Shown: positions 209 to 7,528 of the stretch, piece by piece
How the letters are laid out: every line of letters starts with the position of its first letter
Position numbering within the stretch: the stretch's first letter is position 1
Position numbers and translations under genes: made by a program
Notes under the pieces: generated by a model
Database searches by the model: none
The model's input: the letters and a program-made list of their open reading frames with translations, nothing else
Told to the model about the DNA's origin: nothing
Assembly: GCA_938048815.1 (NCBI GenBank)
Contig: CALIUI010000092.1
Location: 1-43,629, forward strand
Direction of reading: 5' to 3'
Length of the DNA stretch: 43,629 nt
Source of the DNA: an uncultured Aquificaceae bacterium
GTDB lineage: Bacteria; Aquificota; Aquificia; Aquificales; Aquificaceae

Positions 209-236
209 TTGACATGGGAAAAATTTTGGTTATAAT
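209..236 (+). promoter_or_regulatory. Consensus sigma-70 promoter
   Basis: A perfect TTGACA (209-214) and a perfect TATAAT (231-236) are separated by 16 bp. It is the closest match to the housekeeping consensus noticed in the window. Transcription would start near 243 and run into the hairpin terminator at 323-346, with no plausible open reading frame between. It lies just outside the transposon end. Confidence 0.8.
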
Positions 237-294
237 ATATATACAGAAAAGGATGGTGGGATCAAGGAAGTTATAAGATGCGTGTTTAGAAACT

Positions 295-312
295 CCCTCC
301 CCCTCCCTCCCC
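295..312 (-). other. G-quadruplex motif with one-nucleotide loops
   Basis: On the minus strand the four G runs are 4, 3, 5 and 3 long, each separated by a single A. This fits the canonical G3+N1 quadruplex pattern with all loops of one base, the most stable class known. The plus strand has the matching C runs and could form an i-motif. It sits inside the candidate small RNA unit, where the G-rich strand is the transcription template. Confidence 0.7.
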
Positions 313-322
313 TAATTGTTTT

Positions 323-346
323 GCCCCACCGCCCGGTGGGGCTTTT
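323..346 (+). terminator. Rho-independent terminator
   Basis: An 8-bp perfect stem, GCCCCACC with GGTGGGGC, closes a GCCC loop (323-342) and is followed at once by TTTT. It ends the small RNA unit. Its 3' arm contains the only G-rich sequence before the sfsA start, so the hairpin could also hide that gene's ribosome binding site. Confidence 0.85.
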
Positions 347-352
347 CTAAAA

Positions 353-1000
353 ATGAAATTCTCGGAGTTAAAGCCTTCGAGGTTTATAAAAAGACTGAAC
401 AGGTTTGTAGGACTTGTAGAGTTGGAAGGAAAGGAATACACCGCTTACATAAGAAATACTGGAAGGCTAAAGGAGCTTCTCTTTGAAGGCAACGTTGTTT
501 ATGTGGCAAAAAAGGAAAACAAACATCCTTTTGAGGTAGTGCTTGCAAGCTTTGGTAAATTCTTGGTTTGTATAGATTCCCACATAGCCCCAAAGTTGTA
601 TGCAGAGTATTTGAGAACATCTCCTCAATTTGAGCCACGCTTTGGAAATAAAAGGTTTGACCTACTTCTGGATACAAGGCCTGTAGAGGTAAAGTCGGTA
701 AATTTGGCTGAAAAGGGCATAGCCCTCTTTCCTGACGCGCCCACCAAAAGAGGAAGGGAACACATAGAGAAACTTATAGAGCTTTCAAGGGAAGGCTATA
801 AGCCCCTTATAGTTTTTGTAGTGCAAAGGGAAGATGCAGAGGTTTTTTCTCCCAACTGGCGTGTAGACCCAAAGTTTTCAGAATCACTTTTAAAATACTC
901 CAAGCTTGGATTGGAGATAAAAGCTTATAGGTGTGAAGTTAGCTTTAAAGAGATTAAATTAAAAGAAGAGATACCTGTAGTTTTGGAGGGTATAACATGA
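353..1000 (+). CDS. sfsA: SfsA family DNA/RNA nuclease
   Basis: The 215-residue protein has the usual SfsA length. It shows the family marks in order: the N-terminal OB-like region with RFIKRLNRFVGLVELEGK and RNTGRLKELL, then RFDLLL, VEVKSVNL and FPDAPTKRG. SfsA proteins belong to the PD-(D/E)XK nuclease fold, and the acidic and lysine residues of RFDLLL and VEVKS form that core. The E. coli name (sugar fermentation stimulation) does not describe a confirmed role here. It begins 6 nt after a terminator hairpin without a clear separate ribosome binding site, and its stop overlaps the start of pncA (ATGA), so the two genes are cotranscribed. Confidence 0.88.
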   Translation: MKFSELKPSRFIKRLNRFVGLVELEGKEYTAYIRNTGRLKELLFEGNVVYVAKKENKHPFEVVLASFGKFLVCIDSHIAPKLYAEYLRTSPQFEPRFGNKRFDLLLDTRPVEVKSVNLAEKGIALFPDAPTKRGREHIEKLIELSREGYKPLIVFVVQREDAEVFSPNWRVDPKFSESLLKYSKLGLEIKAYRCEVSFKEIKLKEEIPVVLEGIT

Positions 1001-4727: not shown

Positions 4728-5514
4728 AAACCCGTATCTTTTGAAGGCGGGAAGGGTAGAAAAGGTTATAAAGGAATGCGAAGGTATATATACCTTTCAT
4801 ATAGCTACGGAGGAGTCTGCGGTCTTTGGCCAGTATAACATGCTTTATGCCTTTGGGAAGGGAGAAGCTCCTATAACCATAGCCAGCAAAGGAGAAAACT
4901 ACGTGGTTCACACTGTAAGGGCTGTTGGAGATGTAACTAAGCATATAGACAGTCTAAAAGAGGGGGACCTTCTTTATTGGAGAGGTCCCTATGGAAATCG
5001 GTGGGATTTAGAGAGAGCTTATGGGAAAACCCTTCTTATAATTTCCGGTGGTTTGGGGCTTGCGGCAACGAGATGGGTTTTTGAAGAGGCCCAAAAAAGC
5101 CCTGTAAAAAGGCTTATACACCTATACGGCGCCAAGGATTACGATAGCTTACTGTACAGGTACCTTTACAAAGATTGGAACAATAGGGCAGATTTTAGAA
5201 TAGTATTAAGCAATCCCCACCCCCAATGGAAAGGTAAGGTAAGCTTAATAACAAACCTATTAAAGGAGCTTGATTTAGAAAAGGACACAATAGTCTTTAT
5301 GTGTGGTCCAGACCCGATGGTAAAAGCATGTATTCCCCTTTTGAAGGAAAAGGGTATAGATGAAGATAGCGTATACGCTTCCCTTGAAAGGCATATGAAG
5401 TGCTCTGTGGGCACGTGTGGCCATTGTATGATAGGTCCTTACTTTGTATGCAAGGATGGTCCCATATTTAGGTACGACCTTATAAAGGAGTACTTTGAGA
5501 GGAAGGAGGTATGA
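4717..5514 (+). CDS. hyhG: [NiFe] hydrogenase gamma subunit, FAD/NAD(P)-binding
   Basis: The protein is a ferredoxin-NADP reductase-like module that couples the hydrogenase to NAD(P). The N-terminal half is the FAD barrel, IISGGLGLAATRW near residues 108-120 is the nucleotide-binding loop, and FMCGPDPMVKA follows. The C terminus has Cys229, 234, 237 and 245, the [2Fe-2S] site of this family. The start is TTG, chosen because CAGGAGGT lies 8 nt upstream and the alignment begins here. It overlaps hyhB by 11 nt and hyhS by 4 nt. Confidence 0.88.
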   Translation: MLVKNPYLLKAGRVEKVIKECEGIYTFHIATEESAVFGQYNMLYAFGKGEAPITIASKGENYVVHTVRAVGDVTKHIDSLKEGDLLYWRGPYGNRWDLERAYGKTLLIISGGLGLAATRWVFEEAQKSPVKRLIHLYGAKDYDSLLYRYLYKDWNNRADFRIVLSNPHPQWKGKVSLITNLLKELDLEKDTIVFMCGPDPMVKACIPLLKEKGIDEDSVYASLERHMKCSVGTCGHCMIGPYFVCKDGPIFRYDLIKEYFERKEV

Positions 5515-6257
5515 AGGTAGGGGTCTTTAAGTTTTCCTCTTGCGACGGCTGTCAGCTTGCCTTCTTTGAGCTTGAAGAGGAGCTTTTGGAGCTTTCAAGG
5601 ATAATAAGTGTTGAATACTTCCTTGAGGCTTCTTCCTCAAACCGTTGGGAGCACTTTGACTTGGCTTTTGTAGAGGGCTCAATATCCACAAAGGAAGAAG
5701 AAGAAAGGATAAAAAAGATAAGGGAAAGTTCTAAGCTTTTGGTTGCCATAGGTGCCTGCGCTGTCTCCGGTGGTATCCAGTCGGCAAGGAACTTTGAGGA
5801 CTTCTCTCAAGTTTACTCTTCTGTATATTCTTACAAACATTACGAGACAAACCACTACTCCAAGCCCGTGGGAGACTTTGTAGAGGTAGATTTTGAACTA
5901 AGGGGATGCCCTATAAACAAGGAATCTTTAAAGGAGTTGATAGGGGCTATAATCCAAGGGAGAAGCTTCCAAATGCCTTCTTATCCTTTGTGCCTGGAGT
6001 GTAAGAGAAAAGGTAATCCCTGTGTGGTAGTTGCCCATGGCCTTTCTTGCCTTGGTCCCATAACCCTTGCAGGTTGCGGAGCCTTGTGTCCAAGCTACAA
6101 AAGGGGTTGTTATGGATGCTATGGACCCATAGAAAAGCCAAACCTTGAAGCATTGGAGGAAGGCTACAGAAGACTTGGAAAGGATGAGAGAGCTTTAAAG
6201 GAATCTTTGATACTTTCTTTTAATGCTTACAATAAGAATTGGAGGGGGCAGATATGA
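5511..6257 (+). CDS. hyhS: [NiFe] hydrogenase small (delta) subunit
   Basis: The small subunit carries the iron-sulfur relay of the hydrogenase core. The proximal cluster ligands are Cys11 and Cys14 (SSCDGCQ), Cys83 (IGACAVSGG) and Cys133 (RGCP). Further cysteines at 161, 164, 171, 180, 189, 193, 200 and 203 suit two more cubane clusters. There is no twin-arginine signal peptide, which fits a cytoplasmic group 3 enzyme rather than a membrane uptake hydrogenase. The 248-residue length is as expected. Start and stop overlap both neighbours by ATGA. Confidence 0.9.
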   Translation: MKVGVFKFSSCDGCQLAFFELEEELLELSRIISVEYFLEASSSNRWEHFDLAFVEGSISTKEEEERIKKIRESSKLLVAIGACAVSGGIQSARNFEDFSQVYSSVYSYKHYETNHYSKPVGDFVEVDFELRGCPINKESLKELIGAIIQGRSFQMPSYPLCLECKRKGNPCVVVAHGLSCLGPITLAGCGALCPSYKRGCYGCYGPIEKPNLEALEEGYRRLGKDERALKESLILSFNAYNKNWRGQI

Positions 6258-7528
6258 AGCTTAGGATAGATGCCCTTACTCGTGTGGAGGGCGAAGGTGC
6301 CCTTGAGGTCTATGTGGAAGAGGGAAGGGTTAAGGGCTTAAAGCTATCCATATACGAACCGCCAAGGTTTATAGAGGGCATATTAAAGGGAAAGCTCTAC
6401 CACGTTATCCCCGATATCACTGCAAGGATATGCGGTATATGCCCTATTGCCTACCAGATGAGCGGTGTCCAAGCCATAGAGGATGCCTTTGGCGTGGAAA
6501 TTCCGAAGGATATAGAAGAGATAAGAAGGCTTCTTTACTTTGGAGAATGGATACAAAGCCATGCTCTTCACGTTTTCTTTTTGCATTTACCAGACTTTTA
6601 CCGAATGCCTTCTATATTAGAGCTTGCTAATTTAGATAAGGAGCTTGTCATGGCAGGAATGGAGATAAAAAGGGCGGGAAGCTTGATTATTCAAACCCTT
6701 GGTGGAAGGACCTCTCACCCTGTATCGGTGGTGCCCGGTGGCTTTAGCGATCTTCCCGAAAGTCTTTCTTCTTTGCTTGAACCCTTGGAAAGGGCTCTTG
6801 AAAAAAGCCTTTGGGCTATACAAAGAATGAAAAACCTTAACTTTCCCTCCTTTGAACTAAAGGATGTGGTTTTTGTATCCCTTTGGGAAGAGGATTATCC
6901 CATACTAAAGGGTGATATATACCTTGAGGGCGAAAGAATACCATCCTCTCACTTCAAAGAGATCTTTGAGGAGTTTGAGGTTCCTTATTCTACCGCAAAG
7001 CATAGCAAGCTGAAAGACGGCAAAACCTATCTGGTGGGTGCATTGGCACGTTTTAACAAGGCCCACGAAAAACTCTCACCCCTTGCAAAAGAAACTGCAG
7101 AAAAGATAGGCATAGAACCCCCTATAAAGAATCCTTACAAAAGCCTTTTGGTAAGAATGTTGGAGATAACCCACTCCCTTGAAAGGGCTGTACATATGGT
7201 AAAGGGCTATAAAAAACCCAAAAGAAGCTTTGTGGAACTAAAACCAAAAAGGTCGGAGGGCTTTGGTGTTTCAGAAGCCCCAAGGGGTATTCTTTGGCAT
7301 AACTACGCCTTTGATGAGGAGGGAAGGATAACAAAGGCGGATATAATACCGCCGACCTCTCAAAACATGCCAGCCATAGAACTTTCCCTTTGGCAACTTC
7401 TGACGGTCTTGGATAACCTTATGGAAGAGTCTCTAAGAGATCTGGCAGAGCCCATGATAAGGAACTTTGACCCTTGTATATCCTGTGCTACCCATTTTCT
7501 AAGGGTAAAGGTAAAAGACAAGCCTTGA
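6254..7528 (+). CDS. hyhL: [NiFe] hydrogenase large (alpha) subunit
   Basis: The large subunit holds the Ni-Fe centre that splits or makes H2. The nickel ligands are Cys60 and Cys63 (ARICGICPIAYQ) and Cys408 and Cys411 (DPCISCATH). In the family a protease cuts after the His (His414), which here would release a 10-residue tail; no maturation protease or hyp gene is in the window. I chose the ATG at 6254, preceded by GGAGGGGG and overlapping the hyhS stop by 4 nt; a TTG at 6239 in frame is less likely. The gene order beta-gamma-delta-alpha matches group 3b NADP-linked hydrogenases, and the name hyhL follows the Hydrogenobacter usage. Confidence 0.92.
   Translation: MKLRIDALTRVEGEGALEVYVEEGRVKGLKLSIYEPPRFIEGILKGKLYHVIPDITARICGICPIAYQMSGVQAIEDAFGVEIPKDIEEIRRLLYFGEWIQSHALHVFFLHLPDFYRMPSILELANLDKELVMAGMEIKRAGSLIIQTLGGRTSHPVSVVPGGFSDLPESLSSLLEPLERALEKSLWAIQRMKNLNFPSFELKDVVFVSLWEEDYPILKGDIYLEGERIPSSHFKEIFEEFEVPYSTAKHSKLKDGKTYLVGALARFNKAHEKLSPLAKETAEKIGIEPPIKNPYKSLLVRMLEITHSLERAVHMVKGYKKPKRSFVELKPKRSEGFGVSEAPRGILWHNYAFDEEGRITKADIIPPTSQNMPAIELSLWQLLTVLDNLMEESLRDLAEPMIRNFDPCISCATHFLRVKVKDKP

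Follow-up and report, generated by a model that had tools for sequence, protein, structure and literature searches.

A conserved small RNA gene of Aquificota with a C-rich tract that may pair with G-rich translation starts

What does a promoter-terminator unit standing just before sfsA produce, and does its C-rich middle act on the neighbouring gene or elsewhere? The question is raised by one end of the window, by which we mean the whole 43,629-nucleotide stretch of DNA from an uncultured Aquificaceae bacterium that was analysed. A first-pass annotation had described here a perfect TTGACA-16-TATAAT promoter and a strong GC-rich terminator, and both are borne out. TTGACA at 209-214 and TATAAT at 231-236, separated by a 16-nt spacer, match the promoter consensus at 12/12 positions and form the sole perfect TTGACA-N16-18-TATAAT arrangement in the 43.6-kb window, where 0.04 would be expected from dinucleotide shuffles; the terminator stem arms at 323-330 and 335-342 form eight pairs, seven of them GC, and are followed by TTTTCTAA. 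In the aligned unit set, TTGACA (once TTGACT) lies upstream of all Aquificaceae units that have upstream sequence. The conserved unit ends with TTTTCTAA at position 350, and the first base of sfsA is 353, so the interval originally given, 209-346, can be extended by a few bases. The features of the locus are as follows.

209..214, + strand: -35 hexamer TTGACA, 12/12 consensus together with the -10 hexamer, unique in the window
231..236, + strand: -10 hexamer TATAAT, 12/12 consensus together with the -35 hexamer, unique in the window
243..350, + strand: predicted sRNA of ~104-108 nt, its start placed from the -10 hexamer and its end at the terminator tail
243..288, + strand: variable 5' extension, G-rich and C-poor, by fold and composition (34% G, 5% C)
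293..312, + strand: C-tract CUCCCUCCCCCUCCCUCCCC (complement GGGGAGGGAGGGGGAGGGAG), the putative seed, hardly varying over 44 aligned units and single-stranded in the consensus fold
323..342, + strand: terminator hairpin with an 8-bp stem and a GCCC loop, all cells paired, 5/8 pairs compensatory
343..350, + strand: terminator tail TTTTCTAA (most relatives have CTTTCTAA), from sequence and alignment
353..1000, + strand: sfsA (Pfam SfsA and SfsA_N), the downstream neighbour in the window's genus, outside the conserved unit

At the Rfam gathering threshold a tRNA is the sole match in the window and none falls on the sRNA unit, and a lax Rfam search of a sequence containing the window's unit returned sub-threshold matches alone, again none on the unit. 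The hairpin stem covaries. Its 8 bp stem is paired in 44/44 aligned units with compensatory changes at five of the eight pairs, the compensatory cells number 59 versus 13 in shuffles, and stem covariation is 0.496 versus 0.10 in shuffled alignments and 0.05-0.09 in slid controls. An outer stem, UUAGAAA/UUUCUAA, was rejected, being 85% paired, free of covariation and worse than shuffles. Between species the C-tract carries 1-nt and 4-nt indels, which exclude a shared ORF, and the first-pass view that the unit holds no credible reading frame stands, as these indels and the compensatory stem changes leave no conserved frame. The window does have an open frame of 22 codons at 282-350, from which a short peptide might be translated; the same changes break any frame shared across species, so that such a product is scarcely credible and, as a conserved feature, already refuted by the alignment.

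Conservation of the unit was followed by several routes. A blastn search with positions 236-352 against 61 genomes recovered tract, linker, hairpin and tail, which make up the 3' part, from most Aquificaceae at 77-99% identity, with a variable 5' part. The exact tract pattern, scanned over 84,980 species, gave 32 records in Aquificota only, although the scan may omit records very near the window's genome; the one of the 32 that bears an Acidobacteria label is a contig that also stands, within an Aquificaceae genome, in the GTDB-based set. A first family model, R1, extended the family to Hydrogenobaculum-like and Hydrogenothermaceae-like genomes and turned up another copy in the genus Aquifex. 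The window scores 94.7 bits with R1 and 69 bits with a second model, R2, and belongs to the training set, while its relatives came to light separately, through blastn. Members of three families went into R2, which was applied at E <= 0.001 with E-values that are rough and was trained on some of the genomes that it finds, the families f2 and f4 serving as a control within the search. On these terms it matched 111 of 136 Aquificota genomes: 56/64 in Aquificaceae (two weak), 34/41 in the Hydrogenothermaceae-like family f3 and 21/22 in f5, probably Desulfurobacteriaceae, with 0/7 in f2 and 0/2 in f4. The Aquificaceae genomes lacking a match are mostly fragmented drafts. Weak R1 matches in f2 look like chance and were not found by R2, and a poly-C match in genome G023 and two extra matches in P. 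marina were likewise judged to be chance. The covariance search that had been proposed thus recovers the unit in three Aquificota families with a covarying hairpin, and a unit kept across three families is clearly not a peculiarity of one strain.

Two members of the family coincide with reported transcripts of Aquifex aeolicus. The family-model match at 989729-989816 (+) coincides with n68 (989704-989840, +) and the match at 1168991-1169079 (-) with n75 (1168974-1169071, -), n68 and n75 being ncRNA candidates of Lechner 2014, where n68 is noted as Aae-65 (PMC4227106). The -10 box of n68 ends at 989696 and its published 5' boundary lies 8 nt on, at 989704, the same geometry as in the window, from 236 to about 243. 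Aae-65 is said to come first from Willkomm 2005. For n75, the same study gives northern bands larger and smaller than expected and on both strands, so that the northern evidence for this candidate is not clean (PMC4227106). In its main text, the two are separate candidates whose homologous regions were aligned in two to four species, and they are neither linked to each other nor described as a family or as having a C-tract or a polarity, although they are the same loci, on the same strands, as the two model matches. In the table of the same paper, aq_1392 and aq_1666 overlap n68 and n75; these may be spurious ORFs lying over sRNA genes. Conservation in three families, together with A. aeolicus homologues that match published transcripts, supports the original description of a free-standing small-RNA unit, and on comparative evidence the window's unit is almost certainly a real and deeply conserved sRNA gene.

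The neighbourhood of the unit bears on a cis-acting alternative, also raised in the first-pass annotation, by which the unit serves sfsA as a leader or attenuator, with the hairpin holding sfsA expression down through termination and readthrough allowing it. The sfsA start codon lies a few nucleotides from the terminator tail in four genera, and in the window no separate Shine-Dalgarno (SD) sequence lies between tail and gene, as this reading would have it; the remaining Aquificaceae genera and every Hydrogenothermaceae-like locus examined, however, keep the core but have no sfsA in the flank, and the neighbours found instead are unrelated and sometimes on the opposite strand. In detail, sfsA is directly downstream in genera g1, g2, g7 and g10 only. 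Elsewhere, by names read from translations, the next gene encodes a permease, a metallophosphatase, PurD, an ABC transporter component or a rhomboid-like protein or, on the opposite strand, a thymidylate kinase. Since the neighbours differ between genera, an sfsA leader cannot be the conserved role; as a general function it is already refuted by gene order, with adjacency in four genera and unrelated or convergent genes elsewhere, and as an account of the locus it is quite unlikely. Readthrough into sfsA in the window's own genus is possible. At 335-355 in the window, sfsA starts 2 nt past the terminator tail without a separate SD, and the 3' arm of the hairpin, GGTGGGGC, may serve as one.

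The runs of C spaced by single U residues that had been described are present as a 20-base tract at 293-312, CTCCCTCCCCCTCCCTCCCC, unique in the window even with three mismatches allowed (0.00 expected). As AAACUCCCUCCCCCUCCCUCCCC it is near-invariant in the 44 aligned units, the exceptions being CCCU-type insertions, one deletion and rare substitutions, and outside Aquificaceae its sequence varies and is interrupted yet stays C-rich. The tract is unpaired in the consensus structure, and in folds of individual Aquificaceae sequences some of its bases can be paired with the 5' extension. Folding predicts partial pairing of the window's own extension (243-288) with the tract; compared with shuffles this pairing has a z of about 0 in the window's genome, and duplex energies are not significant overall. 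On the minus strand, 293-312 reads as a G-quadruplex motif, GGGGAGGGAGGGGGAGGGAG. It is conceivable that this motif, with four G-runs of at least three and 1-nt loops, is what selection has kept near-invariant as DNA, with transcription incidental; the compensatory changes in the RNA hairpin, the promoter in front of the units, the transcripts in A. aeolicus and the interruption of the tract in other families all speak against it, and we regard a DNA element as very unlikely.

The best explanation, in our view, and a reasonably probable one on the sequence evidence, is that the gene encodes an sRNA acting in trans to repress translation that begins at G-rich sites. Transcribed from a sigma-70 promoter of its own and ended by an intrinsic terminator, this RNA would be about 105 nt long, and its functional part would be the conserved single-stranded CUCCCUCCCCCUCCCUCCCC tract. 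This tract most likely pairs with G-rich SD regions of the GGGAGG, GGGGAGG and GGAGGGG types in a limited set of mRNAs, and pairing at the SD would block ribosome binding; SD pairing as the mechanism is somewhat more probable than otherwise. The computations establish the structure of the gene, its conservation, the covarying hairpin, its freedom from any fixed neighbour and its match to known A. aeolicus transcripts, whereas we infer base pairing, translational repression, targets and the link to oxygen. In Aquificaceae the tract may be masked in part by the variable, G-rich 5' extension; in Hydrogenothermaceae-like genomes, where tract and terminator come nearly straight after the promoter, the predicted RNA would begin almost at the tract.

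Matches to start regions narrow the range of this proposal. Targets were ranked by ungapped scoring, which replaced an earlier RNAduplex ranking because the latter mixed in bulged duplexes and doubtful starts. The A. aeolicus start regions hold 73-75 matches at a score of 16 or more versus 27 in coding controls, as any SD would give, and in the start regions of A. aeolicus and P. marina the tract matches no better than C/U-shuffled tracts. A general regulator tuned to all SDs is therefore not supported; the anti-SD action first suggested for the C runs is plausible, and base pairing is possible. The accompanying claim that many genes of the window use GGAGG is only moderately true, this motif lying within 18 nt of the start in 9 of 46 crudely called genes. 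Among 466 orthologues compared between A. aeolicus and part of P. marina (800 kb), joint extended complementarity was found in 8 versus 4.3 expected (p about 0.05), little more than chance would give. In the target prediction against SD regions that had been suggested, coxI of P. marina comes out at the top of some 830 genes by ungapped scoring over the same 800 kb. A conserved target in flgC was considered and rejected: GGAGGG-type sites are common there but overlap the closing part of the frame before it, a plain SD is found in most Hydrogenobaculum-like genomes, and the Hydrogenobacter-like genus g7 is without flgC yet keeps the sRNA. In the window itself, 5511-7528 holds hydrogenase-like small and large subunit genes, named from translation, with G-rich starts (GGAGGGGG, score 23, the window's top).

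The same lack of tuning between tract and start sites counts in favour of a rival reading, by which the tract would bind a protein rather than mRNAs and the sRNA would be a decoy, for example for termination factor Rho. Rho prefers C-rich unstructured RNA. The tract consists almost wholly of YC dinucleotides, the window's genome has a gene for Rho, and near-invariance fits a protein ligand; 20 nt is, however, short for a full Rho site by established knowledge, and the variation of the tract in other families, where it is nonetheless C-rich, fits either view. A protein decoy seems to us improbable beside mRNA pairing. Hfq domains occur in 40 of the 41 Aquificota genomes searched, usually in two genes; nearly every genome searched has such a pair, one scoring about 100 bits and the other about 65-85, and in A. 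aeolicus the two genes lie at 66945-67130 and 1344084-1344257.

Among individual candidate targets of mRNA pairing, the cytochrome oxidase genes are the best in the Hydrogenothermaceae-like genomes. Extended complementarity is found at 12/12 coxI starts (scores 19-31) and 12/12 coxII starts (scores 20-28) of Persephonella-like loci, counts that come from related orthologues and are not independent, and at 7 of 89 other, crudely called starts in the same loci (L262-L273) at a score of 19 or more. The A. aeolicus cox genes have no extended complementary sites. Genomes of f3 and f5 often carry two sRNA classes, and with the class-B tract several coxI sites lengthen to 10-11 nt. All four f3 class-B copies read (L334, L335, L342, L339) have a TATGAT(A/G)AAAATCATT box upstream, before GCATCCCCC, and in three loci this FNR/CRP-type box lies 52 nt from a GCATCC motif, in the fourth 71 nt; over 800 kb of P. 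marina there are only 24 instances of TGATN4ATCA. The box suggests that an FNR/CRP-type regulator controls class B, and in these genomes the second copy would then link the predicted oxidase targets to oxygen. No FNR-type box was seen in the sequence read for the window's copy. In f5 the class-B copy (L337, L336, L326, L340) follows immediately on a tRNA-like 3' end, GGGGGTTCGAATCCCCC.

Bacterial trans-acting sRNAs are usually fast-evolving and conserved in narrow groups, and a 20-nt tract kept nearly invariant through the families of a thermophilic phylum that branches deeply would be unusual by comparison. Two A. aeolicus ncRNA candidates that had stood alone now become members of one family whose polarity and ends are defined and whose seed can be tested; how short RNA-RNA pairing works at 70-95 C is a question that this raises. 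As far as the literature searched shows, the sRNA family is new as a family, and its functional kind is already known.

Among known systems, sX13 of Xanthomonas resembles the family in having unpaired C-rich motifs directed against G-rich motifs near translation starts, and it provides a precedent for this mode of action on mRNAs with G-rich starts; it differs in having three stems with C-rich loops, whereas the family here has one linear tract and one terminator hairpin (PMC3771888). RoxS/RsaE and FsrA of Firmicutes likewise bind mRNA targets, many of them in central metabolism, through C-rich regions, and RoxS and FsrA are examples of C-rich motifs acting on mRNAs of this sort (PMC8216469). 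Their structure and phylum are different, and the window's unit has no Rfam match. A third likeness concerns the class-B paralogue of f3 and not the window's copy: with its FNR-type box and predicted oxidase targets it resembles FnrS of enterobacteria, a likeness that involves no sequence relation. One may speculate, tentatively and with the odds against it, that respiratory enzymes are controlled, by pairing at G-rich start sites, by a C-rich sRNA family whose age matches that of the main Aquificota lineages, and that its duplicated copies came under two kinds of promoter, one constitutive and one of the FNR type and responsive to oxygen. If this were true, deep-branching thermophiles would have arrived independently at an FnrS-like circuit.
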